Assembly: GCF_029227915.1 (NCBI RefSeq)
Contig: NC_079879.1
Location: 30,322,501 to 30,386,500, forward strand
Origin: Hydractinia symbiolongicarpus
Taxonomy: Eukaryota; Cnidaria; Hydrozoa; Anthoathecata; Hydractiniidae
DNA length: 64,000 nt
Direction of reading: 5' to 3'
In this document: piece by piece, positions 39,042 through 55,663 of the stretch
Layout of the letters: each line of letters begins with the position of its first letter
Position numbering within the stretch: the stretch's first letter is position 1
Notes under the pieces: generated by a model
Told to the model about the DNA's origin: nothing
The model's database searches: none
What the model saw: the letters and a program-made list of their open reading frames with translations, nothing else
Translations under genes and position numbers: made by a program

Positions 39042-39303
39042 AGAGATAGAGAAATATTCCTTCTGGCATAGTCGACGTCGACCAAAGGGAAATTCCCTAA
39101 AATGTTAGTAACCAACACAAAATAATATTAAATAATATTAATTATAATAATATTTCATGTAAGATACATGACGTCATCTACCAACACATAATAATATGAA
39201 ATGATAGATACATTAAATACTAACACAAAATCATATTAATGAATCATATGACGTCATGCGCAATAGCATATATGCTATTATACAGAATATGAGTAAAAAT
39301 TAT
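39042..39303 (+). repeat. Polinton left terminal inverted repeat
   Basis: It pairs with 54,891-55,173. The outer 70 bp are almost identical (start AGAGATAGAG; core TCGACGTCGACC and GGGAAATTCCC). The inner part diverges, with indels, up to GTAAAAATTAT. It holds two TGACGTCA palindromes (39,169 and 39,249). Confidence 0.92.
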
Positions 39304-39907: not shown

Positions 39908-42900
39908 GTGCCAGAGTCTATAAAGAAGGGTGTCAATAGCGTATATAACACGTTCAAAAACAATGTGATGAAACTCAGCAACAGGGTCATGGGTGCAACG
40001 CTTCATGACGAGGTTGAGCAAGAGGCAAGGGAAGATCATAATTCAGAGCAATCGAATCAAGATTTCACGCCACAGGAGTATAAACATGCGATTCATAAGA
40101 CTTTTAGAAATTATCGTATAGCTGGTATAGGTAGAACAGACATTAATGGGTACTTAGGTATGGTTCGATCAAATGTAAAAACACTTATTGAAAACCAAGT
40201 GGAAGAAATGGGCTCTGCGAAAATCCAATGTCACTCTGAATCAAGTGGAGGAAACCCATCGATGGTACTAACGAGTTTATAGAAGTAGACAAGGTTTTTC
40301 ATAGCAACATGGCATCTGTATTCCAGGGCACCATTGTGGATGAAGTGATGGATACAATGTTTGCTCAAATTAGAACGCATGTGGAAAATCCCGCTTTACC
40401 GAAAAGTGGTTTTAGTATCGGTAGAATCAATAACATGGATATAGACTTTCATAAATTGAAGTTAACGAGAGGCTCTTCATACATTGAAACACCCAGATGG
40501 ATCTTGATGAAAAAAGCTATCATAAATCCTATAAATAATGACGAGGAGTGTTTCAAATATGCGATTATCGCCGCCATACATCATGAAGAGATTTGTACAA
40601 ACCATCAGAGAATCAGCAAGCTGCGATCTTATATGGATCGATACAACTGGCAGGGCATCGAGTTTCCAACAAGCATCAAGGATATCACCAAATTCGAGAA
40701 GAACAACCCAGAGATCGCGGTGAATGTCCTGTATGCAAGAGGTAAGACTTTTAATATCCTCCGTCGATCAATATTAAACGAAAGAGAGAAACGGGTTAAT
40801 TTGCTACTCCTCACGGATTACAAAAAGAGCCACTATGTGGCCATCAAAAATTATCAAGACTATTAGGGCGTGAAATATCGAAGAACCATGGAAAAATGAG
40901 TTTTGTCTGAATTGCCTACAAGGGTTTCAAACAATAGAATCCCGCGATAAACACTATGCATATTGCAAAGATAATGAAGCTGTAAAGATCACGATGCCCA
41001 GCGAGAAGTAAAAGTGGCTTTACTATCAAGATGACCAATGCCAGTTCATGGTTCCGTTTGTGATATACGCAGATTTCGAATCTCTACTTATTCCGATGAA
41101 AGAGAATGCTCGCGATACCAAAACTAAGACGCTGAATAAGCATGTACCATGCGGGTGGGCCACATATTCCACCTTTGCCTACGGGTCCTTGCCATATCCA
41201 CTGAAAGTATACAGGGGTGAAGATTGTGTAAAGAAGTTCATCGATCATCTAGAGAACGAGGTAAAGCGACTCTACAGCACCTACCCTCAACAGAACATGT
41301 TACCACTAACGGAGGTAATAGAGAGGGAGTACGTCATCTGCATGAAACCCTTTGACAAAGACGAATATAGCCTTAAAGTTCGAGACCACCGTCACTACAC
41401 GGGGCTATGTAGAGGCGCAGCGCACGCAATTTGCAATCTCAGATATAAGATACCTAATCACGTACCTGTGATATTTCACAATTTAAGTGGCTATGATGCC
41501 CACTTATTCATACGTGAACTAGGTGAAATATATGACACCTAGGATATCGGATGCATCGCGGAAAGTACCGAAAAATATATATCGTTTAATGTAAAGATCA
41601 ATATCCCAATCGCGGGTATGGGGTATGGCGATGGTGAATTTTATAAGAGGATCGAGATCAGATTTATAGACAGCTGTTGATTCATGGCATCAAGCTTGGA
41701 AAAATTGGCAAGCAACCTCGATGATGAACAATGCAAAAATCTCCGTTGGTATTTCACTGAGGATGACACCTTTAAACTCATGCGTAGAAAAGGTGTATAT
41801 CCTTATGAATATATGAATGCCTCGCAACGATTTAAATAGACTGGGCTACCTACAAAGGAGGCTTTCTATAGCAAGTTGAACATGAATGGGATTAGCGATG
41901 AAGAATACGAACACGCTCAAAAAGTGTGGAACAATCTAAAGGGTGATGAGACTACCATGGGTGACTACCACGATGCATATTTAATAACGGATGTACTGCT
42001 ATTGACCGATATCTTTCAGAACTTTCGCAGCACTAGCCACGCGAACTACAAACTAGATCCTGCTCATTTCTACAGCGCTCCAGGCTTAGCTTGGAAGGCA
42101 GCCTTGAAATATACGGGTGTAAGGCTCGAGCTTTTAACAGACCCCGATATGTTATTGATGTTTGAAAAGGGTATTCGAGGTGGTATCACGCAAAGTGTTC
42201 ACAGGTACGCGAGGGCCAACAACAAATATATGGGTAATCGATACAATCCTAATGAAGAATCGTTGTATCTGCAGTACCTAGACGCCAACAACCTGTACGG
42301 ATGGGCAATGCAACAGCTTTTGCCTACTCATGGCTTCAAATGGATATCAAATGTAGAGGTAATAGATGAAAAGAAGATCGAGAAATTGGTATATGATAAT
42401 AAATATGGTTACTTGCTGGAGGTTGACGTCGATTATCCGAAGGATTTAAACAACAAACACAACGACCTCCCCCTCCTACCAGAGCGCAAGTTTGTACATA
42501 GAGTAGAGGAGCTAATACCAAATCTCGAACATAAACGGAAATATGTTGTACACATAGGGGCTCTTCATCAAGCCTTGAAACACGGGCTCGAGCTTAAAAA
42601 GGTGCATCGCGCTATCCAGTTTAACCAAAAGCCATAGCTGCGTGATTATATCGATCACAACACGAGGCCAAGAACTGCCGCCAAGAACGAGTTCGAGAAA
42701 GATTTCTATAAATTGATGAATTTGAGCGTGTTTGGGAAAAATATTGAGAGTATCCGCAATCATCGCAATGTCAAGCTAGTCACGAACGAAGCCGCATATT
42801 CAAAGCTGACCATGCAACCAAATTTCAAGAGCGGCACTTGTTTTGGTAAGAATCTCATGGGTATTGAAATAGGTAGAACGGGTATTAAGATGAATAAGCC

Positions 42901-43500
42901 GATATATGTAGGTCAGGCTATTCTTGACAAATCCAAGATGTTAATGTATGAGTTCCACTATGATTTTATGCAGCCAAAGTATGGTAGTAAAATACAACTG
43001 TGTTATATGGATACGGATTCGTTTGTATATCACATCAAAAGGAGGATTTTTATCGTGATATTGCCGATGATGTGGAGGCACGTTTTGACACGAGTGATTA
43101 TGACAAGAATGACAACAGACCTCTCCCGATTGGTAAAAATAAGAAGGTGATACGCTTGATAAAAGACGAATTAGGGGGTAAAATTATGACGCATTTCATC
43201 ACATTGAGACCGAAAGCCTACGCATACAAAAGCCTCACGAAAGAAGGCGGCGATAAAAAGGCCAAAGGAGTGAAGAGAACTGTCACCAAAAAATGTATCA
43301 CCTTTGAGGACTATGAGCAATGTCTGATGGAAGGCATTGATGTAAACAAAACTTGGCGTTGTATTAATAACAAAGGTCACAATATATACACGCAGGAATT
43401 CACAAAGATTGCCCTGAATAGAGCTGACGATAAGCGGATTGTACAAGTTAATCAAATAAAAACGCCTGCTCGAAGCCATTACCGGTTGAAAGAGAAATAA
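39908..43500 (+). pseudogene. Polinton DNA polymerase B (pPolB), broken
   Basis: It would replicate the element from its ends by protein priming. Motifs seen: an N-terminal region typical of Polinton polymerases (DEECFKYAIIAAIHH, about 40,535), 3'-5' exonuclease motifs FVIYADFESL (ExoI, about 41,055), NLSGYDAHLFIREL (ExoII) and YHDAYLITDVLLLTDIF (ExoIII), palm motif A YLDANNLYGWAMQQ (about 42,277), motif B region LMNLSVFGK (about 42,715) and motif C YMDTDSF (about 43,005). The C-terminus ends at 43,500. Breaks: frame changes near 40,255, 40,857 and 43,040, and stops at 41,009 (TAA), 41,540 (TAG), 41,678 (TGA), 41,837 (TAG) and 42,635 (TAG). Catalytic residues survive, but no continuous protein can be made. 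The start at 39,908 is uncertain (GTG, with no obvious family start). Confidence 0.93.
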
Positions 43501-43502
43501 AA

Positions 43503-44521
43503 ATGGAGGATGTATTGATATTTATCGCTATATTGCTCCCATATATTTTAATCATCCTCGGTTATTTGAAATATAGACGGGTAATAATAAACATGTCAAA
43601 TCTCGTTGATATATTCGATACGCCAGCAGAAGCGCTTGAGCAACCTGTAGATAAACGTTAAATCCTGAAAGATATAAGAAAGACCAACCCACATTTACTG
43701 CCTAAAAAATGTAGCAATAGCTTCATTGATAAGGCATCAGATGAAATAGTCGAAAAAATATACGCAGAGGTAGTTGAAAAGGAACTCCAGGAAAAGGGGG
43801 AAACCACAGCGAGAGCCATCAGCAATCATGCGTTTGGACTATATAGCAAAACCATCAGCAATTTTGTACCCATCGATGATGTAGAGGCTCTCCGTAAGGG
43901 TCTCGACAAAAAACGCCAACCCCTGTTGGAATTGGCTATTAGCGGGAGGCATAGGAAGCACAGTCTCTGGCTGATAACGCAGTCTTATACCGCAATTCCC
44001 AAAAATCTCCACCGGCAGAAAAAGCAGTTGTTTTGCTGGTATCCGCACGAGAGAAGTGATCTTGTTTTGCTGGATCAAGAGACGAACATTATTGATGATT
44101 GGGAGCCAATCAAAAACCAACTCAAAAAGTCCAAGCACGCGTGCCTATATATTCATCTCGAGCACCCTAGAAATTGGAGCATATTGGAATAAATAAATAT
44201 GTTATATGAATTGATGAAAGAACAGTTGAAAGCCTGCCACGAGGAGATGGACAGAATACCCTATCTTGAATCTCATTTAGAGGCTCTTGATGAAGAGCTT
44301 CGTGATGTTCTGGAGAGAGAAAGAATCCATAGGAGGGTCTGGAAAATGATTTGATCATCCGCGAATCTATGACCGAGCTTGGAATCCTTGCTTATACAGC
44401 GTTCGGAAAATTTTTAGCGCCTTTGTTGGTAGCCGCTCATACAATTAATCATACAAAATTGTCTAAACAGGGTTCTCCCGAATCGGAGGAACCGATGAAT
44501 GATACAAGCTCTCCATCATAA
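43503..44521 (+). pseudogene. unknown Polinton protein interrupted by a 431-bp internal copy
   Basis: It starts 2 bases after the polymerase stop, with AAATAAAA just before the ATG. Residues 5-25 are a strong membrane segment (LIFIAILLPYILIILGYL). The next part is charged and helical, with a TAA at 43,659 in frame. At 43,904 the gene is cut by a copy of ATPase-region DNA ending at 44,334. The flanking sequence on both sides carries GGGTCT. If the insert and one GGGTCT are ignored, the frame runs on to the stop at 44,519-44,521, through MTELGILAYTAFGKFLAPLL and a Ser/Pro/Glu-rich tail. Family unknown; probably a membrane or virion accessory protein. A second ATG at 43,593 (MSNLVDIFDTPAEAL) could be the real start, with the upstream TM part not translated. 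Confidence 0.75.
43904..44334 (+). repeat. 431-bp displaced copy of 45,525-45,955
   Basis: Nearly identical to 45,525-45,955 (about six base differences seen, offset 1,621). It holds the C-terminal half of the ATPase (no Walker A or B) plus most of the next gene. It is flanked by GGGTCT at 43,898-43,903 and 44,335-44,340. Confidence 0.93.
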
Positions 44522-44528
44522 AAGAAGA

Positions 44529-44554
44529 TTTTATAAGCCCTGTGGCTTATAAAA
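44529..44554 (+). terminator. gene-end hairpin, 11-bp perfect stem
   Basis: TTTTATAAGCC, loop CTGT, GGCTTATAAAA. It lies 8 bases after the stop of the preceding gene and directly before the ATG at 44,556. A role in 3'-end formation is inferred. Confidence 0.5.
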
Positions 44555-44555
44555 A

Positions 44556-44912
44556 ATGAGCAACGAACAACCACAAGAAGAAAGGGTAATAACAAAACCA
44601 GTGAAGCATCCTGGTAGAGTAGCCCAAGGCCACAAGTTGGCCGCACTTATGAAGAAGAGGAAGGAAGAAGTAAGGCAACAAGAGGGTGTTGTACAACCGC
44701 CAGTCAAAACCTCTTCTGGAGTGAGTTCTGTACAGTCAGGAAGTGGAATATACATTGGTAGAAGCCTACTCGCGATCGTATGTATTGGAGGTGCCTACTA
44801 TTTTATCCGTAAGAGATCCGCGAGTACCATAATGCTCCCTGTTGCAGTGGCTCAGCAACCAAGCGTGAGGCAGGAGCCTAAGGCAGAGATTGACATTTTT
44901 CACATGCGATGA
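44556..44912 (+). CDS. small single-pass membrane protein of the Polinton
   Basis: 118 aa, function unknown. The first 60 residues are basic and glutamine-rich (GHKLAALMKKRKEEVRQQ). A membrane segment spans about 72-84 (SLLAIVCIGGAYYFI), followed by Arg-Lys-Arg and a short tail ending DIFHMR. The topology suggests a basic N-terminal domain anchored to a membrane, possibly a virion membrane. It sits between a hairpin and another small gene in a compact + strand cluster leading to the ATPase. ATAAAAA precedes the start. Intact. Confidence 0.75.
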   Translation: MSNEQPQEERVITKPVKHPGRVAQGHKLAALMKKRKEEVRQQEGVVQPPVKTSSGVSSVQSGSGIYIGRSLLAIVCIGGAYYFIRKRSASTIMLPVAVAQQPSVRQEPKAEIDIFHMR

Positions 44913-44927
44913 TCCCTATAATAAAGC

Positions 44928-45209
44928 ATGAGCAGCAAAGAATATCAGAAAGAGGTTGTTGATAGTCTATGGGAGAGTGTAAGGCTAGTATCATATACCA
45001 TCGTAATAGCATTAGGTGCCAAAAAGGCGCTAGGTATTTCTAGACCAGGTTCAAAAATGGACATGGAGGATGGATTAAAGCTCGCCGGATATATGACGGG
45101 GGCTATCTTATTTGATGATTATGCGATAAAACAGGGTTGGTACAAGCGTTCGATGATGCCAACTAAGAAAGCACATGCAAATTTCATGTATACCATGTGG
45201 TATACATGA
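44928..45209 (+). CDS. small Polinton accessory protein, ATPase-adjacent
   Basis: 93 aa, intact, unrecognised. A hydrophobic stretch at about 19-31 (RLVSYTIVIALGAKKAL) and a second weak one (LKLAGYMTGAILFDDYAI) suggest membrane association. The C-terminus ends FMYTMWYT. It lies 15 bases after its neighbour and 7 bases before the ATPase, with AATAAAGC before its ATG. Its last codons and stop fall inside a 24-base palindrome. By position it is probably expressed with the ATPase and acts in morphogenesis (inference). Confidence 0.7.
   Translation: MSSKEYQKEVVDSLWESVRLVSYTIVIALGAKKALGISRPGSKMDMEDGLKLAGYMTGAILFDDYAIKQGWYKRSMMPTKKAHANFMYTMWYT
45185..45208 (+). terminator. gene-end hairpin, 11-bp perfect stem
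   Basis: CATGTATACCA, then TG, then TGGTATACATG, a perfect inverted repeat overlapping the last codons and stop of the 44,928-45,209 gene, just before the ATPase ATG. Confidence 0.5.
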
Positions 45210-45216
45210 AGAATAA

Positions 45217-45813
45217 ATGCTAGATATTGTCAAGGTATCTCATACGGCTATATTTACGGGCCCTACAAGTTGTGGAAAGACGCAGCGCGTGCTCGACCTC
45301 CTGGAAAATGAATACAGGGGTCACTTTCAAAATATAGTGATACTCTGTCCCACGATACGTTTCAATAGAACTTCCTTGGAGAGATCCTCGCTTTGGAAGG
45401 ATGATTATGTGTTCCTTATTGACCCAGGTGATAATTTGTTCGATTGGATTCAGCGATTATCGAATATCCTCGCCGGTGAAAGTACTCTCTTCATGGTTGA
45501 TGATATTATAGCCAATGAAAATCTCGACAAAAAACGCCAACCCCTGTTGGAATTGGCTATTAGCGGGAGGCATAGGAAGCACAGTCTCTGGCTGATAACG
45601 CAGTCTTATACCGCAATTCCCAAAAATCTCCACCGGCAGAAAAAGCAGTTGTTTTGCTGGTATCCGCACGAGAGAAGTGATCTTGTTTTGCTGGATCAAG
45701 AGACGAACATTATTGATGATTGGGAGCCAATCAAAAACCAACTCAAAAAGTCCAAGCACGCGTGCCTATATATTTATCTCGAGCACCCTAGAAATTGGAG
45801 CATATTGGAATAA
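45217..45813 (+). CDS. Polinton packaging ATPase (FtsK/HerA, A32-like)
   Basis: 198 aa, intact. The family pumps genomic DNA into preformed capsids using ATP. Walker A is GPTSCGKT (residues 15-22). Walker B is LFMVDD (91-96) after a hydrophobic strand. A conserved strand WLITQS (about 127-132) corresponds to the sensor motif. Size fits the Polinton/adintovirus/virophage ATPase group (about 200 aa). The start is preceded by GAATAAATG, with AATAAA overlapping the ATG. The C-terminal half and the next gene were copied to 43,904-44,334. That this gene stays open while capsid and polymerase genes are broken argues for recent death of the element. Confidence 0.93.
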   Translation: MLDIVKVSHTAIFTGPTSCGKTQRVLDLLENEYRGHFQNIVILCPTIRFNRTSLERSSLWKDDYVFLIDPGDNLFDWIQRLSNILAGESTLFMVDDIIANENLDKKRQPLLELAISGRHRKHSLWLITQSYTAIPKNLHRQKKQLFCWYPHERSDLVLLDQETNIIDDWEPIKNQLKKSKHACLYIYLEHPRNWSILE

Positions 45814-45819
45814 ATAAAT

Positions 45820-46017
45820 ATGTTATATGGATTGATAAAAGAACAGTTGAAAGCCTGCCACGAGGAGATGGACAGAATACCCTATCTTGAATCTCATTTA
45901 GAGGCTCTTGATGAAGAGCTTCGTGATGTTCTGGAGAGAGAAAGAATCTATAGGAACACCATGTATTTTTTCGGATGCATGTCTGTCCTAATGATCACCC
46001 TGGTTGGAGTAATGTAA
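45820..46017 (+). CDS. 65-aa coiled-coil plus membrane-anchor protein
   Basis: Residues 1-45 are helical and charged with heptad-like spacing (LKACHEEMDRIPYLESHL, LDEELRDVLERER). Residues about 48-64 are a membrane segment (YFFGCMSVLMITLVGVM). It starts 6 bases after the ATPase stop. A partial second copy, with its TM segment cut off, lies at the end of the displaced duplication (44,200-44,334). The form, a tail-anchored coiled coil, suggests a membrane or virion accessory protein; function unknown. Confidence 0.65.
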   Translation: MLYGLIKEQLKACHEEMDRIPYLESHLEALDEELRDVLERERIYRNTMYFFGCMSVLMITLVGVM

Positions 46018-46025
46018 ATAATAAA

Positions 46026-46832
46026 ATGTCACTTACCTTAAACATATTGCCTACCATTGAGATATTGGTAAACAATCAAGGCCAACCAATGTTTAAACGT
46101 GCAGATCTGGAAAGATTTTTAGGTATTACTGATATTTGAACATCCTGTAGAGCGCTTAATATAGCGGAGAAATCGCGCATAGAGCTAAATGCTTAGGACC
46201 CGGCATACCATGCCGGGCTAAAGGAAACTAAAAATGCTCACGATATGTTCATCTCTTTGGATGATGCTTTAAAGATTTGTATACATTCAAAAAAAGCAAA
46301 GGCTCTTGAAATTATGAGAATGCTGGCGTCGAAAGGGATTGAAAAATTACAAGAAACCATGGAAGAGCATCACCAAGCTCTAGCAATACTCAACGATGAC
46401 TTGAAGGACAGGGACATAACTATAGCAAACCTCCAGGAGGATCTTCACGAAAGAGAGAACCAGCTTGATCTCCGAATATTGGAGATTGCAGGACTACGTC
46501 AGAGATAGGTGCCACATGCTAATGATGCGGGCAAGGATAATGTAATTATGATTTTTTGTAAACATACTGCATCTGAAGACGATAAATACCACCATCTTCC
46601 ATATTACTGCGCCCGCGTACAAAGACGTGGTATTTTAAAGAAAAGGAGGTGGGTAAGGATTCAATTTCCAAATTCGGAAGAAATCGTTTTCATCGATAAC
46701 GCCAATGGCATACATGCGTTTAATAGGTTCGAAGAAGAAGGACATATGGAGCGATACATTTGCCATTTCAGACTTATTGATCTTACCCGCGATGATTTGT
46801 ATGATTTGAGTGATACAACACTAGAAGATTAG
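46026..46832 (+). pseudogene. MSV199-like viral protein with three in-frame stops
   Basis: One frame of 269 codons without a frameshift, interrupted by TGA at 46,137, TAG at 46,194 and TAG at 46,506. The first 37 residues (LPTIEILVNNQGQPMFKR, then a short helix) and the segment around FISLDDALKICIHSKKAKAL resemble the N-terminal MSV199 domain of large DNA virus proteins. A coiled coil follows (about 46,330-46,500). The last 100 residues (CKHTASEDDKYHHLPYYC to YDLSDT) resemble the DUF3627-type end domain that often follows MSV199. Domain assignment is from memory of the fold pattern and is moderate. The breaks are all single stops, so decay by point mutation is likely; readthrough is an alternative that three different stops make unlikely. 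Confidence 0.65.
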
Positions 46833-46840
46833 GTATAAGT

Positions 46841-46866
46841 TTTTGTAGCTCTTATGAACTACAAAA
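46841..46866. terminator. hairpin between convergent genes, 8-bp stem
   Basis: TTTTGTAG, 10-base loop, CTACAAAA. It sits between the + gene ending at 46,832 and the integrase stop at 46,878, so it could serve both strands. Confidence 0.45.
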
Positions 46867-46877
46867 TCGAGAATTTC

Positions 46878-47882
46878 TCACCAATTTTTCACTTGCTCCG
46901 GAGGTAGAAATACATCCTCGGGTACTAGCATGAACTCCTCTGATACGAAAGATCGATCAGGACCTCCATCAAGATAATATAGGAGACGGGTACCTGTCAC
47001 TATATGGTCGAGCCTGTACGTCTTTTTGCTCCAATAGGCATCCATCGCACGTCTCCTTGCATCTCCCTGTTCCTCACCAGGTTGCAAGAGGTAGAGGTAG
47101 AGCCCGTCGTCGGGTAACGGCTTTTCATCGGGATATTCCTCGCTTTTCGCGAGTGGGACTTCATCGAGTTTAATGGCCTTGCTAGGCTTCATGCTGATCA
47201 TAGCCGTCTTGGTGTTGTTCATGCCTTTCACGATAGTATATAGGTGTTTAACCCATGTGGTACTCTGTTCGTCACTGACCAGCTCCTGCGCATCTTGAGG
47301 CTTGAACAATCTCTCGGCGAGCAACTTGTTATAGGATTCCACGAACGCCGTGAAAGTATGATGGTATTTGGTAGTTGCCCTTTTGATCTCGACATTTTTG
47401 CTCTCCAACAACTTTGTCACGTCCGATTTGAATTCTGAGCCGTTATCACATTGGAATATGCTCGGATAACGCAAAGGTCCTGCTTTATAAATATCCTTGA
47501 GCATCTCGGCGACTTCACTAGCTTTCTTGCTACATATCGGCCGAGCCACCTTGTATCGTGAAGCTATGTCAATGCCCGTCAAAATGTACTTATAGATGTT
47601 GCCATACACTTTATCATGTGGCATATAGAGCAAGTCAAATTGATGGATCTCATTAGGTTTTGTAACAGTGAAATGCGGGTAATTGATCTTTTTCGGACCC
47701 TTGATATGCCTGAGCCGCAGGAGTTGACGAGATAGCCAGTGAATAATTTTCTTCTTTGATAGACCACTATGCTCGTTGAGCAATTTGATAGCTTTTCTCC
47801 CGGTCCAGAGATGTTCGGGCTGATAGTAGATTTGACTCAGCTTTTCAGCTTCTTCGGCTGTAACAATATGTGATTTTGACAT
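46878..47882 (-). CDS. Polinton integrase (retroviral-like, DD35E)
   Basis: 334 aa, intact. It inserts the element's ends into target DNA and creates the 6-bp duplication. The rve catalytic core has D83 (HQFDLLYM), D146 (FQCDNGSEF) and E182 (FVESYNK); the last two are 35 residues apart, the retroviral D,D-35-E spacing. A helical N-terminal region without an obvious HHCC zinc finger precedes it. The C-terminus (YRLDHIVTGTRLLYYL, then EEFMLVPEDVF) looks like the SH3/chromodomain-like end seen in Polinton integrases. The start lies in a hairpin (47,874-47,898) and is preceded by TAATAA. All three catalytic residues survive, so this copy might still supply integrase in trans (inference). Confidence 0.95.
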   Translation of the reverse strand: MSKSHIVTAEEAEKLSQIYYQPEHLWTGRKAIKLLNEHSGLSKKKIIHWLSRQLLRLRHIKGPKKINYPHFTVTKPNEIHQFDLLYMPHDKVYGNIYKYILTGIDIASRYKVARPICSKKASEVAEMLKDIYKAGPLRYPSIFQCDNGSEFKSDVTKLLESKNVEIKRATTKYHHTFTAFVESYNKLLAERLFKPQDAQELVSDEQSTTWVKHLYTIVKGMNNTKTAMISMKPSKAIKLDEVPLAKSEEYPDEKPLPDDGLYLYLLQPGEEQGDARRRAMDAYWSKKTYRLDHIVTGTRLLYYLDGGPDRSFVSEEFMLVPEDVFLPPEQVKNW

Positions 47883-47898
47883 TTATTAGATGTCAAAA
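47874..47898 (-). terminator. hairpin covering the integrase start, 9-bp perfect stem
   Basis: On the minus strand TTTTGACAT, loop CTAATAA, ATGTCAAAA; the right-hand arm contains the integrase ATG. It lies between the end of the upstream gene (47,977) and the integrase. Confidence 0.45.
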
Positions 47899-47976
47899 AT
47901 GTTCTTACATATACTTGTACACTACAAAGCCGAGGAGGGCCAAGGAGCCAAGAATGAACGTCAGTTCACCGTCTTG

Positions 47977-48303
47977 TTACTGTTTGCTTGAGGTATAGAA
48001 GTCGGAGAGCTTTGGGGCTTTCTCTATGGTTGCAATGAAATATTCCCTCATTCCCTCATCGAGTTCTTTAAGAGATTGTCCTGCCTCCCTTTGTTCCTCC
48101 CACCGTCGGTTGTACCAGTCAATTTTTGCTTGTCTTTGCCTTACCCAGGCAGCTTGGGCTGCTTGTAATTTTTCAAGAGCCTGGTCATGACACTTCCTTT
48201 CCGCTTTCCCGTGGTTACTTAATTTTGAGAATAGATAGTTACTACCACTAAAAGCCAGAGCATTGATCAATGTTCCTCCAGCCATAATCGCGAGACTTGC
48301 CAT
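47977..48303 (-). CDS. 108-aa membrane/helical Polinton protein
   Basis: Function unknown. It starts with a hydrophobic segment (MASLAIMAGGTLINALAF) and continues as a charged amphipathic helix rich in Gln, Trp, Arg and Glu (AAQAAWVRQRQAKIDWYNRR). The start at 48,303 was chosen over an in-frame ATG-like codon 18 bases upstream because it follows AAAATAAAC, the motif used by the SAP and capsid genes. It lies between the integrase and the major capsid gene, so a role in virion assembly is plausible. Intact. Confidence 0.7.
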   Translation of the reverse strand: MASLAIMAGGTLINALAFSGSNYLFSKLSNHGKAERKCHDQALEKLQAAQAAWVRQRQAKIDWYNRRWEEQREAGQSLKELDEGMREYFIATIEKAPKLSDFYTSSKQ

Positions 48304-48308
48304 GTTTA

Positions 48309-48333
48309 TTTTGTAGACCAAAGGCCTACAAAA
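48309..48333 (-). terminator. hairpin between capsid gene end and next start, 11-bp stem
   Basis: Plus-strand TTTTGTAGACC, AAA, GGCCTACAAAA with one G/A mismatch. It lies 17 bases past the major capsid stop and just before the 48,303 start. Confidence 0.5.
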
Positions 48334-48349
48334 ACAATTTTTAATGCTC

Positions 48350-49627
48350 TTAATGTTCTACTGAATGAAAACGACCATCCAAAATATTTAATTGTGCATC
48401 CATCAGCAAGTACACGTAGCATCTAATATCACCCGTGCCGTCGGCCCTTTTTGTCATGTGAAGTGTGATTCCGTCTGACAGCTTCTGAAGCGGTCTTCCG
48501 GACCCGTGTAAGGTGGGGTCCGGACTTGTTCTGAAACCGAGGAGAAGCCCATATCTCTCCGTAAAGAACTGGCCAATCGTTATTATAGAATAATGGTATC
48601 CAAAGAACCCCGCTACTTGTTCCATATGATCCTTTGGCATCATCGCATGGCTATGCAATTCATTAGGTGAACATTCAATAGTAATAGAGATTTTCTCGAT
48701 CTTAGGGTTGTAAAATCTTTCGTTATTACCAGAGTAAGCCTTGACAACGGTAGGATCCTGAAATAAGAGTAACACGCCGCCTAGCCTCTTGGCTGGAGTA
48801 TCAATTTGCAAATTATAATTCGTATCAGATTTTTTTCATAGTCACCGCTTTGCTCCTTAGTATACGTTCGTATGGTAGAGCAAGCCTGGAATACCTTGAC
48901 ATCATTGCACTTGCCAGATCCTCATTTACAACCTTGTCAAATTCTAGGCATATATTGCTGATCTTGTAGGAGAAATCGGCTGCTTTGGCTGCCGTGCTGC
49001 CAGACGCTGGGGTTCCGGCATCCTTTATAACGTCACCGTATGGCGAGAAATGCAGGATAAACTGCAGTCTATCGTGAAGCCCCGCTTGGTAAAACGGGAG
49101 AACCCTCGTCAATGAGAACATCTCCCCAAGGGGAATACAGAACGTGTTGCCATATGCCTCGGCTATGGCCTTCTCCTCCTTGTTCCCGACGTGATCACTG
49201 GCCTTGACCTGGATGCTCCGAATCGTTCCATCGTTCGGATTGATACCCTGAAGGATCATGTTATTGTCCCTATCAAATTTTGAAATCCAAAGATCACGGT
49301 ATACTGCAAGCACGTTGTAATCTTGTATGTTTTGTATTTCATTACCATTCAGCGTAACTCGTAAGCTCTGTACCAATGCTTTGCCGATATTTGATACGAT
49401 CGTACGCTTGGTGTTTGTACCTGCAGCTTAAGGTCGAACAGCAAGTTTATTGAGCCGGGGAAAATTACATCATTCTATCCAAGGTTGGGGACGTCCACGT
49501 ACAAATCTTCATTCTGGTTAATTGTGCTGGGTATGTGACTTATCTTCACCCTTTGCCTCTTTCCTTTCATGCCGAGCATAATCTTGATTTCCTTGTATGG
49601 ATTTAGCTTTCCGAATATGTTAGACAT
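48350..49627 (-). pseudogene. Polinton major capsid protein (double jelly roll), broken
   Basis: It would form the pseudo-hexagonal capsomers of an icosahedral particle. The 5' end reads MSNIFGKLNPYKEIKIMLG. The best-preserved block (49,376-48,825) starts LVQSLRVTLNGNEIQ and holds YRDLWISKFDR and FCIPLGEMFSL, matching the conserved N-terminal jelly-roll region of Polinton capsid proteins; the last part (48,811-48,350) carries ECSPNELHSHAM and YVYLLMDAQL. Breaks: TAG at 49,475-49,477, a frame change near 49,420, and a frame change at a T run (48,830-48,836, an A run in the gene). Without breaks it would be about 425 residues. The start is preceded by TATAAATAAAC and shares a 34-bp divergent spacer with the next gene. 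Confidence 0.88.
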
Positions 49628-49661
49628 GTTTATTTATAGTAGTTTGGAGCTGAAATAAACT
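49628..49661. promoter_or_regulatory. 34-bp divergent spacer with mirrored AAATAAAC
   Basis: The major capsid gene leaves leftward and the 49,662 gene rightward. GTTTATTT at the left edge is the exact reverse complement of AAATAAAC at the right edge, so each start has the same motif 0-1 base away. A promoter or translation-start signal is inferred. Confidence 0.55.
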
Positions 49662-50907
49662 ATGGATAAGCCAGGATATGACTTCACAGAAGAAATAGAT
49701 ATTCAAGACGAAGCCGAGGAGTTCAGCAGTGAGAGCGAGATCCTTCGACCGGGGGATATTCCTGATACAAGCACTACGTCCGCAATACGATGTGACTTCA
49801 CTGACACCGCGACTGCAAGGCATGAATTATTAACATCAAAAGTTGATAGCCTCTACGAAGCTCTTAGTGGGGAGCTCGGTCAACCACTCGCTAGACATTA
49901 TGATGATTTTGAAATGGATGGAAACCACCTTCTCTATGATGGGATAGAACTTACAAAAGGAAATGGTGAGAGCCATGGGAGCGATAAAAAAAGCCTTGTG
50001 CGCTGGTAGGTTGCGAGCCATGGGATTCGATCAATATTCAACACTCAACATGGGTAGTAGGAAGATGGCGCAGGGACTACTTAACGATATCGTTCACGTT
50101 GAAGAGAAGGCTGATGACATCGAGATGCTGCCATTGCTCGAGAATGTTCTCGATGACACAAAGAGCCTGATGGAGGATACTTCCTTTACCGAAGCCTTTG
50201 ATGAACGTGAAAGGCGGAGGCTTCATTTCTATGTTAGAACGCTCAAGGACGACTTGAATAATGTGAAAATTAAGATGATCTACTACGATGGTGAGCTTTC
50301 CAATGCAGATGACAAGATCAAGAGGCTTGAGGCGAAAAAGGCTGGGTCCGACGTATCGGAGGAACAAGAAAAAATTTGGGATGCGGACCTCGATAAGGCC
50401 AAGAAAGATCGTGAAAAGCTAAAGGATGATCGAAAGGCGATAATAGAAGAACATGGTCTCTCAAAGATCCATAGTCAGCTGAAGATGATTAAGGAGACAC
50501 TTATGAAGATAGCTGGAGATGACACATCCCTGCGAGAAAAATTAACCATTTTGTTTAAAGAGCAGGGGATCACTATTGCTAGTATCGTATCAGCCGTGGG
50601 CTTACTTATATCCACCTTGGTCCTGGCGCTCACAGGAGGTAGTGGGGCAGCAGCAGGTGCTGGAGGAAGTGGTGGTAGAAAAAGGTTTGTTCAAAAGCAG
50701 CTGGAGAGATTGGGAAAATTCCTGAAGTATCTAGCAGGCAAAGAGGGAGCTGCTCTGCCAGGCATTATTGGCACTGTTGTGTCGTTCTTCTTCAGAGTTG
50801 CAGCGACGGTTGTCGAATATGTAGCGAAGCACCTCTATTTAGCGATTGCGGGAGCCGTGGGTATTGTTGTTGCGTATGTAGGTAACAGGAGGAGTAAGAA
50901 TCGATGA
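49662..50907 (+). pseudogene. large Polinton membrane protein, frameshifted
   Basis: Two overlapping frames. The first, 49,662-50,009, encodes an acidic N-terminus (EEIDIQDEAEEFSSESEI) and LARHYDDFEMDGNHLLYDG. The second, from about 49,963 to 50,907 in the +1 frame, encodes a long charged helix (RERRRLHFYVRTLKDDLN, later KDREKLKDDRKAIIEEHG), a hydrophobic pair (ASIVSAVGLLISTLVLAL), a Gly/Ala/Ser-rich linker, and a second hydrophobic region (HLYLAIAGAVGIVVAYVG) with a basic end. Combined length is about 415 residues. A one-base indel near 49,965 is the simple reading; programmed frameshifting is possible but I see no classical slippery site. Function unknown. It is typical of cnidarian-type Polintons and probably a virion membrane or internal protein. 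Confidence 0.75.
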
Positions 50908-50910
50908 AGT

Positions 50911-50938
50911 GTCTAGTATGTTGTTCAACACATTAGAC
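50911..50938. terminator. hairpin between convergent genes, 13-bp stem
   Basis: GTCTAGTATGTTG, TT, CAACACATTAGAC, with two mismatched pairs. It lies between the + gene ending at 50,907 and the - gene ending at 50,951. Confidence 0.5.
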
Positions 50939-50950
50939 CTATTTCTTCAT

Positions 50951-52024
50951 TCATATATATGCGAGGATAAGTCCTACTCCGACCGTAACCAGCGTCGCTT
51001 TGGTATCCTCGTGAACAGCAGCTTCCTTGATATCAGGCGTGGTTTTCCTTATATGTTGCCTCGGAGTTGTGGTGAAGGCTGCCTTATATTTGACCATGGT
51101 ATTCAGATTTAGCTCTACACCTACACCTATGTTGGAAGGTGCTATTAAAACGTTGTTGTTATACCCCACAATCTTTCCAATGCGCAGGTTCATGTCGGAA
51201 GGGAGCATGTAGACGCTGGGCATGACGGCAAAATTGACTGGAGTCCGTGCATACTGGAGCACCTTTTGAAACTCGATAATGTCTTGACCTACGTTTTCCT
51301 TACGTTGAGCCATATTCTCGAATTTCTGCAATAATATTTGCCTCGCTGTATAGTTATCAGCATTAGAGCCTAGGATTGATGCCTTTGCACTCGCTTGGGA
51401 TCCTAGTAGCAAGATTACGTAAACGCGTATACTTTCACTTAGCTTGGTCAGCCCCTCCGATGTCAGACCCTGGGAGGTTGGTATAATGAATTTGGCCCAA
51501 TCCCCATTAACCTGCGGCCACCATCTACTACTCGTCAACGATGACGTTAGGGCTTTGAACTTGTACAAAGCGTTGGGATCTGCACCGTATTCGCGACATA
51601 CCTGGGCATGTCCTGAGCTCGAGTATGGGTTATCGTACTGAGAAAAGCCTCCTTCGTATGGCATGGGTAGCTTCATTCTCGCTAGGATACGATGCATATG
51701 GTAGTATACATGGAATTTAAAGATCGATTTGACGATGGGTATATGCTTGGCAGAAATGCCTAATGCAGTGGTTGCGCAATGAGCGGCGAAATTGACCTGG
51801 ATGTTCCAATAATTCAAGGCTTGCCCCTTCCAATTTACACTCACGGGATAATTTAACAGGTTAGTGGGAACTTTGATACGATATTTGGTGAACTGTGGGA
51901 ACGCCACGGAAATGTGCTGAGTAGTAGACACGTAGAGGTCCTGATGCTTCAAGTTATTTACGCCGAGAGGCCACTCGCTGTTGGATTTGTATTTTGCTGA
52001 TGGATTATACGAATAGATATTCAT
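50951..52024 (-). CDS. 357-aa Polinton protein, unrecognised, C-terminal membrane segment
   Basis: Intact, with no family I can name. The N-terminal third is rich in Tyr, Asn and Ser (YSYNPSAKYKSNSEW). The middle has SIFKFHVYYHMHRILARM and a Gly/Tyr-rich loop (YEGGFSQYDNPYSSSGHAQ). The end has VATLV-like strands closing with a hydrophobic segment (TLVTVGVGLILAYI). Its size and place between the two capsid genes suggest a structural virion component. Its ATG and that of the minor capsid gene face away from each other across only 24 bases. It is one of the longest open frames in a decaying element. Confidence 0.7.
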   Translation of the reverse strand: MNIYSYNPSAKYKSNSEWPLGVNNLKHQDLYVSTTQHISVAFPQFTKYRIKVPTNLLNYPVSVNWKGQALNYWNIQVNFAAHCATTALGISAKHIPIVKSIFKFHVYYHMHRILARMKLPMPYEGGFSQYDNPYSSSGHAQVCREYGADPNALYKFKALTSSLTSSRWWPQVNGDWAKFIIPTSQGLTSEGLTKLSESIRVYVILLLGSQASAKASILGSNADNYTARQILLQKFENMAQRKENVGQDIIEFQKVLQYARTPVNFAVMPSVYMLPSDMNLRIGKIVGYNNNVLIAPSNIGVGVELNLNTMVKYKAAFTTTPRQHIRKTTPDIKEAAVHEDTKATLVTVGVGLILAYI

Positions 52025-52048
52025 GTTTCTTTAAAGAAAGAAAGAAAG
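52025..52048. promoter_or_regulatory. 24-bp divergent spacer with a 14-bp palindrome
   Basis: It separates two opposed start codons. TTTCTTTAAAGAAA (52,026-52,039) is a perfect palindrome, followed by GAAAG repeats. It lacks the AATAAA motif of the other starts, so it may belong to another expression class (inference). Confidence 0.5.
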
Positions 52049-52717
52049 ATGAAGCAGCTTTACATAACTACTATTGATAAACCAATAGTCTTCGATGAAT
52101 ATCTGAGTGAAGGCACCAGAATAGCTCTTAAGTCGATCAGCATTCGACCCACGAGGCAAAATTTTTATAGTAATAATGATTTTACAATACGTAGGGTAGG
52201 ACCTGCTCAGACAGTTACTCGAATCGAAATCATGAACGGTTTGTACAAAATTGAAGATACAGCAGCCATTCTCAATACACAGGCACAGGGTAAAGTACAG
52301 CTTTTTGTATTGAAAAATGGCATATGCAGGATCCGCGTTCATGAGGGGTATACGTTAGTGTTCGGTGAAGCACTCCACAAGCTATTAGGGTTCACATTCG
52401 ACCCCCAAGAGAAATATTATATGAAAGGTGAATATGATGCAGTCTATGCTACGGACGTAAATTAGCGATTAAGACTCACATGTCACCAATTAGATGAAAA
52501 CCATGCCCTATTGGACGGGAAGAAATCGAAAACCCTGGCCATACTACCGACGAAGGAAAACACCTGGGGCGATATGCTCGCGTGGACTTTTGATAACGTC
52601 GTATCTATACCCTTGAAAGGATCCACCGATCGTCTGGAGTTGATGTTGACGGACGAGCATCACCATGATAAGAACGTTTCGTTCGTTGGAATTACCATCC
52701 ACTTGCTCATAGAATAA
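52049..52717 (+). pseudogene. Polinton minor capsid (penton) protein, one in-frame stop
   Basis: A 222-residue frame that would form the single-jelly-roll pentons at capsid vertices. It starts MKQLYITTIDKPIVFDEY. Strand-rich blocks include LSEGTRIALKSISIRPTR, LHKLLGFTFDPQEKYYM and DMLAWTFDNVVSIPLKGS, and it closes with VSFVGITIHLLIE; length and pattern fit the Polinton minor capsid family. The frame is interrupted once, by TAG at 52,463-52,465, with no frameshift. A single C-to-T change of a CAG codon would explain it. The next gene starts in the bases directly after its stop. Confidence 0.82.
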
Positions 52718-53368
52718 ATGAATAATGATGAAGTCATGAAACTATATCCGAGCCTACCGTCGAGTGCGCCTGATCAAGAAAATAACGAAAGTCAGGTCTA
52801 TCGCCTCAAAAAGATCGAGGAGATCGAGATATACCTAAGAAATGAAATTAAACAGCGTGAAAAACTCGCTAAAAAATTTGGTATGCATGGACTGTGGGTA
52901 AACTACATGGATCACGGGCTATTAGCAATAAGTGTTATAACATCAGGTGTTGGAATTGTTAGTATGCTCTCGGGAATCGGTGTTCCTCTGGCAGTGGCAA
53001 TGGGTGAAATAGCCATCGCCGTGGGATTGAGACAAACAGCTCTAAAACAGGGTGGTAAGAAATTGAACTATAAACGTAAGAAACATGACTCAATAAGACT
53101 TCTTGCAGAGACTAAGCTGAATTCAATAGTTGATTTGATATCAAGGGCGATTAAAAATGGAGTGATAAGTGATTATAAATTTTCACTAATAAACCAAGAG
53201 AAGCAAAAATATATGCTGCTAAAGGAGCAGATTTGTCAGCGCATGAAAAAAATAGTGGAGACGATCAATGAATAAGAGAGACAGGCACTTGTCGACAAAG
53301 GTCGCAATGAGGCAAGAGTAGAAATCTTAAAAAACTTGCAGTCTGCTCAATATGTCAGCGGTACTTAG
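52718..53368 (+). pseudogene. two-TM Polinton membrane protein with an in-frame stop near its end
   Basis: Residues 1-30 are Pro/Ser/Glu-rich (LYPSLPSSAPDQE), then a charged helix, two membrane segments (GLLAISVITSGVGIVSML and GVPLAVAMGEIAIAVGL, about 66-107), and a basic C-terminal helix. A TAA at 53,273-53,275 stops translation after 185 residues, but the frame stays open for 30 more codons to a TAG at 53,366, with similar helical composition, so the TAA is probably a mutation. The protein may still work in the shorter form. It begins directly after the penton stop (AATAAATG). Family unnamed; similar two-TM proteins are usual in cnidarian-type Polintons. Confidence 0.65.
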
Positions 53369-53386
53369 ACGAACCGCCAGCGTATT

Positions 53387-53414
53387 TATAATGTATTGTT
53401 AACAATACATTATA
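53387..53414. terminator. perfect 28-base palindrome between convergent genes
   Basis: Arms TATAATGTATTGTT and AACAATACATTATA with no loop. It lies between the + gene (stop 53,368) and the SAP gene's stop at 53,410, whose last codons it overlaps. Confidence 0.5.
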
Positions 53415-53685
53415 CAACGCCAACCACTTCACCGGTATCTTTATCGATCATAAAATCACCGTCGTATATGACACTTCTTTTTTGTTTTGCCTCGAGACCC
53501 TTTATATACTCATCCAATATTTTCATAGCTGTGATTTCTAGACATGGCTTGCAATGAGGCCCAAGTGTTTGCGTTGCGGTATCCTTATATTTTACCTTAT
53601 GAATCGCGGCTATAATTTCAGTTTTTTTCATAGTCGAATAACCACGTATCCCTAATTTTCTCGCTTCCCTTTTTAACTCGTTCAT
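53410..53685 (-). CDS. SAP-domain protein of the Polinton
   Basis: 91 aa, intact. Residues 1-35 (MNELKREARKLGIRGYST, then MKKTEIIAAI) have the helix-turn-helix pattern of a SAP or Rho-N type DNA-binding domain: LKREARKLGIRGYS followed by KKTEII. The rest contains CKPC and ends in an acidic segment (YDGDFMIDKDTGEV). It probably binds DNA or RNA during replication or packaging (inference). The start at 53,685 was chosen over an upstream in-frame codon because of AAAATAAAC just before it and because SAP begins there. Confidence 0.75.
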   Translation of the reverse strand: MNELKREARKLGIRGYSTMKKTEIIAAIHKVKYKDTATQTLGPHCKPCLEITAMKILDEYIKGLEAKQKRSVIYDGDFMIDKDTGEVVGVV

Positions 53686-53690
53686 GTTTA

Positions 53691-53717
53691 TTTTGTATAC
53701 AACATTAATATACAAAA
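53691..53717 (-). terminator. gene-end hairpin, 9-bp perfect stem
   Basis: TTTTGTATA, 9-base loop, TATACAAAA. It starts 1 base after the stop of the 54,333-53,719 gene and ends just before the SAP start. The stem resembles those at 46,841 and 48,309 (TTTTGTA). Confidence 0.5.
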
Positions 53718-53718
53718 A

Positions 53719-54333
53719 CTAGACCACAACGAATGGTTCCTCATCATCATCTGAATCGATAAGATGTCTGGTCCTGGATTGTTGCACAGACTTATATTTG
53801 CACTCTTCAAACAAGACCTGCAGATAGTGCTTGGATCCCTGTCGATAAATGCTGGATAGCTTGATGATAGCCGTACATTCACAAGGTTGATTTTCAGGTA
53901 CTCGGGCGTCGTAAAAATCAGTTGTTATTTTGCTATCCCATGCCTTGACTTTTGCATTCATATATCGATCATTCTTTACTGGCGAGGCTGTGAATTCATT
54001 ACCATATAGTTTCTCGATCCTGGCTAGGATGATCTGATATTTCTCCAACCATTCTGGATGTTGATGTAAATCGAATGACATGGTAAGAGAGCAGCCTTCA
54101 TCGTAACGCGAGGTACCATTGGAATAGAGCTTTTTAGGTGTTTTGATCAATAGAGGTGATAGCTTGTTGTGACTATTTTTATAGCCAATAATGAAGCGTT
54201 CATCTTTACCCTTGTTTACTGGGATAGCATCGCCCATCACGATATTTTCAATGTTTACATCTTCGATATTTAGTGGAATCGCTTTGGCATAAAAGTCTCT
54301 TGAATTAACATTCTCGTTACCGAATTTGAACAT
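53719..54333 (-). CDS. probable ssDNA-binding protein of the Polinton
   Basis: 204 aa, intact. It starts MFKFGNENVNSRDFYAKAI and has beta-rich blocks (ENIVMGDAIPVNK, RFIIGYKNSHNKLSPLLI, QPCECTAIIKLSSIYRQG) consistent with an OB-like fold. It ends in a strongly acidic tail, SDDDEEPFVVV, as in many single-stranded DNA-binding proteins, where the tail recruits partners. Proteins of this kind sit at the replication end of cnidarian-type Polintons. The assignment rests on fold impression and tail, not on a catalytic motif. TTAAATAAAAGG precedes the start. Confidence 0.6.
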   Translation of the reverse strand: MFKFGNENVNSRDFYAKAIPLNIEDVNIENIVMGDAIPVNKGKDERFIIGYKNSHNKLSPLLIKTPKKLYSNGTSRYDEGCSLTMSFDLHQHPEWLEKYQIILARIEKLYGNEFTASPVKNDRYMNAKVKAWDSKITTDFYDARVPENQPCECTAIIKLSSIYRQGSKHYLQVLFEECKYKSVQQSRTRHLIDSDDDEEPFVVV

Positions 54334-54335
54334 CC

Positions 54336-54355
54336 TTTTATTTAAGGAAATAAAA
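54336..54355 (-). terminator. hairpin before the ssDNA-binding gene, 8-bp perfect stem
   Basis: Plus-strand TTTTATTT, AAGG, AAATAAAA. It lies 7 bases past the Cys-rich gene's stop and immediately before the 54,333 start; one arm is the AAATAAAA motif itself. Confidence 0.45.
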
Positions 54356-54361
54356 CTTCAA

Positions 54362-54520
54362 CTAGGGTTTGTTACAGGTACAGCTACCACCATTATACGT
54401 AATATACTCATACCAGCAGTACCAGCAAAGCAGTTTACCTTTTATGAGGAATCTCCGTCCACGGGAGCATCTATCATATCCATCGAGCACGCTTTCACAT
54501 TCATCACAATACTGAGTCAT
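54362..54520 (-). CDS. 52-aa cysteine-rich (zinc-ribbon-like) mini-protein
   Basis: It starts MTQYCDECESVLDGYDRC and ends SCTCNKP. Cys pairs CDEC, CWYC and CTC, plus a single Cys, suggest one zinc site. The ATG overlaps the stop of the upstream gene in an ATGA, a coupling seen in compact viral genomes. Basic residues (SRGRRFLIKGK) would fit nucleic-acid binding. It is too short for most gene finders; support comes from the overlap, the AAATAA before the start and the Cys pattern. Function unknown. Confidence 0.6.
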   Translation of the reverse strand: MTQYCDECESVLDGYDRCSRGRRFLIKGKLLCWYCWYEYITYNGGSCTCNKP

Positions 54521-54837
54521 TTATTTGAGAGGGCTCTGAAACGATCTGGAACATATTCGAGGAGCACTGGATTGTCACGTACTGCCTCATCACATAGTTC
54601 CTGTGTTTTTAAATGATCGGGTACATATCTGAACATCAGGCTCTCCCTTCCGAATGCATCATTACACATTTCTTGTGTCTTTAAATGATCGGGTACTAAC
54701 ATTAGTGTCCAGGGATGTTCACGAACTACGGCAGTACACATTTCCTGCGTTTTGAAATGATCTGGTACGAACATTAGTGTCCATGAATTAGCACGGACTA
54801 TTCGATCAGGCATTATGAGATGATCATTAATGGACAT
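54517..54837 (-). CDS. KTQEMC-repeat protein (DUF4116-like)
   Basis: 106 aa from the ATG at 54,837 (a codon at 54,864 would add nine). It consists of about three 32-residue repeats with the core VPDHxKTQEMC followed by AVRExP or similar, then a degenerate fourth. Such short helical repeats recur in cnidarian-type Polintons and in some large DNA viruses and resemble DUF4116-type repeats. Probably a protein-binding scaffold; role unknown. It is the outermost gene, next to the right terminal repeat. TATAATAAAG precedes the start. Confidence 0.7.
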   Translation of the reverse strand: MSINDHLIMPDRIVRANSWTLMFVPDHFKTQEMCTAVVREHPWTLMLVPDHLKTQEMCNDAFGRESLMFRYVPDHLKTQELCDEAVRDNPVLLEYVPDRFRALSNK

Positions 54838-54890
54838 CTTTATTATATAATTTTTTGATTCCAACTAACAATTTTTCTAGGACAGTTGAA

Positions 54891-55173
54891 TAATTTTTAC
54901 TTATATTCTGTATAATATGAGTATACGCTATTGCGCATGACGTCATATGATTTCGTTTATATTATTTTGTGTTAGTATTTAATGATATATATCATTAATA
55001 TTAGTTTGTGTTGGTTGTTAGCATTGTACTTCTGGTATCTTACATTTAATATTATTTTGTGTTGGTTATTGGCATTTAATATTATTTCATATTATTTTGT
55101 GTTAGTTACTAACATTTTAGGGAATTTCCCTTTGGTCGACGTCGACTGTGCCAGAAGGAATATATCTCTATCT
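54891..55173 (-). repeat. Polinton right terminal inverted repeat
   Basis: Reverse complement of 39,042-39,303 with indels. It shares TCGACGTCGACC-flanking sequence, GGGAAATTCCC and one intact TGACGTCA (54,938-54,945); the counterpart of the second left-hand copy has diverged. Confidence 0.92.
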
Positions 55174-55180
55174 CTGATGA
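55174..55180. repeat. right target-site duplication (CTGATGA)
   Basis: It matches 39,035-39,041 exactly. Confidence 0.85.
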
Positions 55181-55663
55181 TTTTGTCCTGAATTCTTGAC
55201 AGATCTCATTTAGTAGTTTTGCAGTGAAATTTCGTACCTCATTATGGTGACTAATGATGAAACCACCCTACGGACCATGTGATTGCATTTGCAACGGTGC
55301 AACGTTTAATAGTGCGCCATATACAATTGTTGTTGGAAGTTTTTGAAGAGGAAAGCCAAAAGCGAAAATATAGAGCATCCAAAAATTATTTAATTTATGT
55401 AAATCCATATTCCTTCAGCAACAATGATGTAAACCATATGGACGCACCGTTTCAAGTGAATGCTTTTAATTTCTGAAGCGAAGATATTGATTCTTATAAT
55501 AATCTATACATCTTCTTTGTATTCCTTGTGCTAACTTGGTGTTGTTTTTCACCGTATGCAATTTAAAATTACATTCAAAGCTAGAATTTTAAATGTTGAT
55601 GATTGTAGATTTAGTAACACTTCAATAATATGTATATCTATTGTCTAATGTTTTAGGCGGGAT

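Follow-up and report, generated by a model that had tools for sequence, protein, structure and literature searches.

Conserved Gene-End Hairpins in a Hydractinia Polinton as Candidate Signals for Transcript 3' Ends

Introduction

A Polinton occupying about 39.04 to 55.18 kb of a 64,000-nucleotide (nt) stretch of the Hydractinia symbiolongicarpus genome (NC_079879.1, positions 30,322,501 to 30,386,500; hereafter the window) carries hairpins that are real, structurally conserved in diverged copies of the element, and tied to gene ends. We propose, with a probability of roughly 0.7, that these hairpins are the 3'-end signals of Polinton transcripts and are able to work on both strands; as read from the DNA, they likely form the 3' ends of the RNAs. 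The hairpins bear on how Polintons are expressed in animals and on whether they behave as viruses. Their presence at gene ends in many diverged copies is a testable sign of past selection for virus-type transcript ends.

Hairpins at the Gene Junctions of the Polinton

Stems were scored with +1 per pair and −2 per mismatch, and a score of at least 8 was considered strong. The inverted repeats at the junctions, in window positions, are:

44,529–44,554, + strand: tandem junction, hairpin of 11 pairs with a CTGT loop, 8 nt past the stop of the upstream + gene
45,183–45,210, + strand: tandem junction ahead of the packaging ATPase gene, hairpin of 13 pairs overlapping the stop codon of gene 44928–45209
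46,841–46,866, no strand assigned: hairpin of convergent junction 1, which in the sense of the integrase (− strand) has an 11-pair stem with an AUAA loop
47,874–47,898, − strand: hairpin behind gene 47977–48303, one arm overlapping the integrase start codon
48,309–48,333, − strand: hairpin behind a probable capsid gene whose end is at 48,350
50,911–50,938, no strand assigned: imperfect hairpin of convergent junction 2, score 7, shuffle p = 0.09
52,020–52,053, no strand assigned: palindrome of divergent junction 2, extending over both start codons
53,387–53,414, no strand assigned: perfect 28-nt palindrome of convergent junction 3, which overlaps with the − gene's stop
53,691–53,717, − strand: hairpin behind gene 53719–54333 (tandem)
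54,336–54,355, − strand: short A/T-rich inverted repeat, present in the window and poorly kept in the copies

A sequence-only reading of this DNA had reported nine inverted repeats at gene boundaries, including one at each of the three convergent junctions. All nine were recovered at or very near the positions it gave, as was the TTTTGTA/TACAAAA stem common to the hairpins at 46,841, 48,309, and 53,691. Several particulars changed: the 11 pairs reported at 45,185–45,208 extend to 13 at 45,183–45,210, the 11 pairs at 48,309 are reached only on the sense (−) strand, where the single mismatch of the + strand becomes a G.U pair, and the repeat at 50,911, described as strong, is present but falls short of the threshold. 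The hairpin at 47,874 had been placed about 80 bases past its upstream gene, which holds for the stop at 47,977; the − frame remains open for 23 codons beyond that stop, to a TAA ending at 47,905, and the hairpin therefore starts only ~7 nt past this later stop. Most of the 46 homologous copies examined have 24 or 25 extra open codons at this place. The + gene with a stop at 53,275, before the 53,387 palindrome, also has a frame that is open on to 53,368.

Measured in 80-nt windows at the 15 junctions, strong stems occurred at nine (52,020 included, 50,911 excluded), compared to a mean of 0.39 and a maximum of 4 in 1000 dinucleotide shuffles, the control that the sequence-only reading had suggested. 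The best stems summed to 120 over the junctions versus 76.1 (standard deviation 4.1) in the shuffles. Six junctions scored below 8; in four of these the spacer measures at most 15 nt, and the other two are divergent junction 1 and 50,911. Among overlapping coding windows, 5 of 604 contained a strong stem, and no clear enrichment or depletion was seen in coding DNA (2 windows out of 162, where 2.5 were expected), while flanking host DNA had one in 5.5% of 2362 overlapping windows. A scan of 43,400–55,200 with the Rfam covariance models at E values up to 1 returned only a match to a snoRNA family, which scored 26.3 bits where the gathering score is 48; a histone 3' stem-loop or another known Rfam element was rejected accordingly.

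Conservation in Diverged Copies

Related copies in the same genome number at least 120 for the integrase, 150 for the capsid-side piece, and 150, 114, and 150 for three more genes, every candidate that was scored being a match. Ten near-duplicates were removed from loci L001–L060, with the window copy (L001) counted. Slices for the sites with 20 copies were taken without prior duplicate screening, and near-duplicates were removed in a later recount. Copies scoring at least 8, with the shuffle expectation, were as follows:

46,841 (convergent 1): 25 of 31, 1.07 expected
50,911 (convergent 2): 10 of 20, 0.42 expected; no near-duplicates
53,387 (convergent 3): 19 of 20, 1.29 expected; 18 of 19 in the recount
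47,874 (before the integrase): 24 of 47, 1.17 expected
48,309 (behind the gene at 48,350): 26 of 49, 1.17 expected
45,183 (behind 44928–45209): 15 of 20, 0.48 expected; 11 of 15 in the recount
53,691 (behind 53719–54333): 12 of 20, 0.41 expected; 11 of 19 in the recount
44,529: 8 of 20, 1.18 expected (261-nt slice), with seven of the eight hairpins near the expected place and one elsewhere; 8 of 19 in the recount
52,020 (divergent 2): 16 of 20, 0.55 expected; 13 of 17 in the recount

Junctions with a start and hardly any spacer served as controls, and these tight tandem junctions had a hairpin in 1 of 20 and 0 of 16 copies. Divergent junction 1, where a 34-nt spacer separates two starts, had one in 1 of 16, and coding windows of the same loci contained a strong stem in 3 of 342, 3 of 186, and 0 of 88 cases. 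Because start-only junctions are poor in hairpins, stops explain every conserved site except 52,020, and promoter palindromes were rejected as a general explanation. The 52,020 palindrome is a start element rather than a gene end; two start elements facing each other could produce such a palindrome.

A related idea casts the hairpins as promoters, or as stem-loops that regulate the gene lying downstream. At tandem junctions an arm does lie near the next start and an AATAAA, and at 47,874 it overlaps the start itself. The convergent junctions, however, have no starts and still have hairpins, with convergent 1 and 3 the best kept of all, and we consider a role of this kind highly improbable.

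The hairpins also keep a regular distance from the extrapolated stop. Behind the gene at 48,350 all 26 hairpins lie 11–27 nt from it, and behind the integrase 18 of 25 lie at 5–14 nt, with the other seven at 29–79 nt. This narrow spacing at two sites argues against a mutational by-product, in which template switching during replication would make or correct palindromes in unconstrained spacers without selection. Divergent junction 1, which is without them, and the much poorer flanking host DNA point the same way. Inverted hairpin copies (described below) and arms that are well paired in elements with broken genes would agree with such a process, which nonetheless appears very unlikely as the explanation.

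Pairing Is Kept While the Letters Change

Distinct hairpins at a single position numbered 20 in 25 copies behind the integrase and 17 in 24 and 17 in 26 copies at two tandem sites. When right arms were dealt among the copies, the copy's own pairing was better at all eight sites. Stem values (own/swapped) were 8.52/5.25 at convergent 1, 7.89/6.05 at convergent 2, 10.75/6.37 at convergent 3, and 9.45/7.81 for the divergent palindrome; at the tandem sites they were 10.10/6.73 behind 44928, 7.55/5.71 behind 53719, 7.33/5.35 behind 48,350, and 6.71/5.70 before the integrase. The swap used copies whose arms were long enough, which at convergent 2 meant 19 of 20, before the integrase 45 of 47, and behind 48,350 36 of 49. 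The permutation p-values (≤0.0006 with all copies used, ≤0.0052 with distinct ones only) are indicative, as the copies share ancestry and the values overstate independence. Pairing is thus kept while the letters change, and it is the structure that is conserved. This agrees with the sequence-only reading, which had named conservation in related copies as a check; the hairpins are kept at the same place with changing sequence.

Polyadenylation Signals and Start Motifs

Host polyadenylation provides another possible account, in which an AATAAA near the stop ends the genes and the hairpins play an accessory part or none at all. In the window, 10 of 12 tandem gene ends have AATAAA at −5 to +39 nt of the stop, and the motif occurs at four tandem junctions in 45 of 49, 39 of 47, 15 of 20, and 15 of 20 copies (shuffles 7.4, 6.9, 4.7, and 2.1). 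At the convergent junctions, which have stops and no starts, it was found in only 2 of 142 strand-ends versus 11.3 (range 3–22) in shuffles; canonical polyadenylation would place it at every gene end. It also precedes the ATG, divergent junction 1 included. Being common at tandem and rare at convergent junctions, AATAAA marks the start of the next gene, and it was rejected as a 3' signal. Its depletion at convergent ends is in keeping with 3' ends that form independently of the host signal. The weaker variant ATTAAA is not depleted there and leaves some room for host polyadenylation, which we regard as rather unlikely.

A second motif accompanies the starts. The window has 19 listed starts. 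A TAAA no more than 16 nt from the ATG accompanies 13 of them, and three read TAAATG; the starts at 44,556; 45,217; 47,882; 48,303; 49,627; and 53,685 are among these 16. Both motifs are lacking at 52,049 and at the two starts on the PolB side. Internal ATGs, used as a control, have TAAA in 25 of 244 cases. In the copies, TAAA exceeded the largest shuffle at the starts of the integrase (26 of 33), gene 47977 (30 of 40), gene 53719 (20 of 20), and gene 50951 (14 of 19), and four more starts with one to four usable copies gave 0/1, 3/3, 4/4, and 4/4. TAAA at the ATG resembles the initiator of poxviruses (vaccinia intermediate/late) and of yeast virus-like elements.

On both strands the poxvirus T5NT motif exceeded shuffles behind the integrase, and it did so too behind 53719 and the gene at 48,350, slightly at convergent 2, and not at convergent 3 nor behind 44928. 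It was set aside as a general signal and may belong to the arms of the hairpins. As read from the sense strands of the DNA, none of the window hairpins is directly followed by five consecutive T.

RNA versus DNA

Convergent junctions cannot discriminate between action in RNA and in DNA because each strand is the sense strand for one of the genes. At the four tandem sites, the more stable fold was the sense one in 36 distinct hairpins and the antisense one in 20, an asymmetry significant alone only behind 48,350 (p = 0.017). So small a lean does not decide the matter, and strand asymmetry was set aside as proof of RNA action. At two sites the hairpin or its loop in some copies (L012 and L028 behind the integrase, L044 and L047 at the 48,350 site) is the reverse complement of that in others, a sign of inversion between the arms. 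The 3' stem-loops behind chloroplast genes undergo small loop inversions, are found in both orientations, and protect transcripts rather than terminate them; the Polinton loops resemble these in having both orientations and differ in that the chloroplast examples belong to organelle genes.

The palindromes could instead act as DNA, as sites for dimeric proteins or as cruciforms (insulators, or marks for replication or packaging) placed in scarce non-coding DNA. Their nearly perfect symmetry, the weak strand asymmetry, the palindrome at a start-start junction as well, and the inverted hairpins, which need strand exchange in DNA, are in agreement with this. A binding site would be expected to keep its letters, however, and several unrelated stems occupy one position; divergent junction 1, with its 34-nt spacer and two starts, is also without a hairpin. 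We consider action as DNA improbable.

Several points weigh against the proposal that the hairpins are transcript 3'-end signals. The evidence is DNA sequence, and the enrichment statistic was calibrated on shuffles, coding DNA, and host DNA. The shared ancestry of the copies makes the arm-swap p-values less independent than they appear. Between a quarter and three fifths of the copies miss the threshold at tandem ends, and the G.U versus A.C test at the four tandem sites gave 20 G.U and 13 A.C cells, a weak asymmetry. Counted together, AATAAA and ATTAAA occur at 19 of 142 convergent strand-ends versus ~22 in shuffles, which is no clear depletion. The inversions between copies indicate that a DNA-level process acts on the hairpins too, and the start-start junction at 52,020 also has a conserved palindrome. 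Finally, the repeat at 54,336 was found in 1 of 20 copies versus 0.96 expected (1 of 17 in the recount); being no better kept than in shuffles, it was dropped as a gene-end hairpin, and it is probably outside the gene-end set in which the sequence-only reading had included it.

That reading's interpretation, a virus-like 3'-end signal independent of the host polyadenylation signal, is partly supported. The link to gene ends is present at all conserved sites except 52,020, and AATAAA is depleted at convergent ends; the weak strand asymmetry, the unconserved 54,336 repeat, the palindrome at a start-start junction, and the inclusion of ATTAAA each detract from it.

Proposed Mechanism

We infer that the hairpin acts in RNA. 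Once the polymerase has passed the stop codon, the nascent RNA would fold into a hairpin of 8–14 bp, usually 5–30 nt further on, which would halt the polymerase, be cut, or shield the end. Each mRNA, or each tightly packed run of genes, would end at such a hairpin, and at a convergent junction one near-perfect palindrome would serve both genes. Pairing would matter and the letters would not, and the AATAAA of tandem junctions would belong to the start of the next gene. The hairpin coordinates given above are the places to check against Hydractinia RNA data.

The Element and Its Genes

The element is a Polinton. It has the marks of a Polinton/Maverick: PolB (PF03175) and a retroviral-type integrase (PF00665) matched above cut-off, the packaging ATPase (Pox_A32) just under it, and terminal inverted repeats are present. 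The PolB of this copy is broken. Its G+C content is 0.39–0.46 (2-kb windows, 40 to 54 kb) compared to 0.29–0.35 in the flanks.

39,042–39,345, no strand assigned: left terminal inverted repeat, from blastn of both flanks (80% identity over 335 columns)
54,844–55,175, no strand assigned: right terminal inverted repeat, from the same blastn comparison
40,309–43,500, + strand: DNA polymerase B, split over several frames, with PF03175 on the piece 41,876–42,637
45,217–45,813, + strand: packaging ATPase, Pox_A32-like, slightly below the Pfam cut-off
46,878–47,882, − strand: integrase (rve), PF00665, E = 2.1e-10

The other genes alongside the broken PolB, the ATPase, and the integrase are without assigned function. 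The gene ending at 48,350 is the probable capsid gene, although its pieces matched no family. Pfam scans covered 20 whole or partial open reading frames (ORFs) of the element, all but a few that are small or broken, and recognized neither an RNase III nor a poly(A) polymerase nor an RNA polymerase; a whole-genome search with Pox_polyA_pol gave no match, and neither did its controls. Scans with the integrase, the ATPase, a PolB piece, and two protein alignments found no relatives among viral contigs; none was found by scan among prokaryote genome contigs, nor in phage records searched with one Polinton protein.

A small protein at 53,410–53,685 (− strand) has a Rho_N domain (PF07498, 35.3 bits versus a cut-off of 24.9), a fold that binds nucleic acids and takes its name from the bacterial termination factor; that this protein helps to end transcripts would be speculation. 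A segment made up of the ATPase gene's 3' part and the beginning of the gene that follows occurs at 43,903–44,330 and, almost unchanged and in direct orientation, again at 45,523–45,950. The predicted protein at 54,517–54,864 has a VPDHLKTQEMC-like repeat unit and matches DUF4116.

Elsewhere in the genome, topoisomerase II pieces adjoin pieces of a large-DNA-virus major capsid protein at L181:47-2276 (C7, near 4.35 Mb), and the capsid one shares 79% identity with proteins of Ostreococcus viruses. The locus is an endogenous or contaminating prasinovirus-like fragment. Two hairpins were found in its 5-kb slice, neither of them at a gene end.

Comparison with Known Systems

A survey of the open-licence literature by titles and abstract starts returned no report of gene-end hairpins in animal Polintons. 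In viruses, hairpin 3' ends of mRNAs are described for Mimiviridae, which use RNase III and a viral poly(A) polymerase (PMC4402537), for Marseilleviridae (PMC5413956), and for pithoviruses and Iridoviridae (PMC11814242). Hairpin 3' ends are also described for the Sputnik virophage (PMC6723459) and for transpovirons (PMC7031253).

The Polinton follows the hairpin rule of these nucleocytoplasmic large DNA viruses in both respects. Its palindromes are concentrated behind stop codons, 54,336 and 52,020 excepted, as intergenic palindromes are tied to upstream stops in Mimiviridae, Marseilleviridae, and other such viruses (PMC4402537, PMC5413956, PMC11814242), and its structure is conserved and its sequence not, as in Mimiviridae, where a free sequence with a kept structure replaces the eukaryotic consensus (PMC4402537). 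In contrast, Mimiviridae and Marseilleviridae encode RNase III, and Mimiviridae also a poly(A) polymerase, neither of which was recognized in the Polinton ORFs scanned. Giant viruses, furthermore, have poly(A) placed within the hairpin, whereas the Polinton is an element of an animal and its hairpins are read from DNA alone.

The yeast virus-like elements pGKL are a second parallel. Their 3' ends have no 3' poly(A) and are shaped by RNA stem-loops close to the stops, at a median of 26 nt; a TAAAN initiator precedes 12 genes, T is enriched at the mapped RNA ends, and the elements encode a pox-like RNA polymerase of their own (PMC6211774). The Polinton shares the stem-loop close to the stop and, at most starts of the window, TAAA at the ATG; unlike pGKL, it has no RNA polymerase recognized in the ORFs scanned. 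In a bolder reading, hydrozoan Polintons have the full virus-type punctuation (a TAAA initiator touching the start codon plus a hairpin past the stop) and, with no polymerase of their own recognized, would depend for transcription on a co-infecting large DNA virus, which would turn them into animal virophages; we hold this extension to be doubtful.

Sputnik and transpovirons are small elements that bear both hairpin ends and late promoters of their helper giant virus (PMC6723459, PMC7031253). They live in amoebae; for this Polinton no helper is known. The conserved hairpins at gene ends link these Polintons to virophages and giant viruses.

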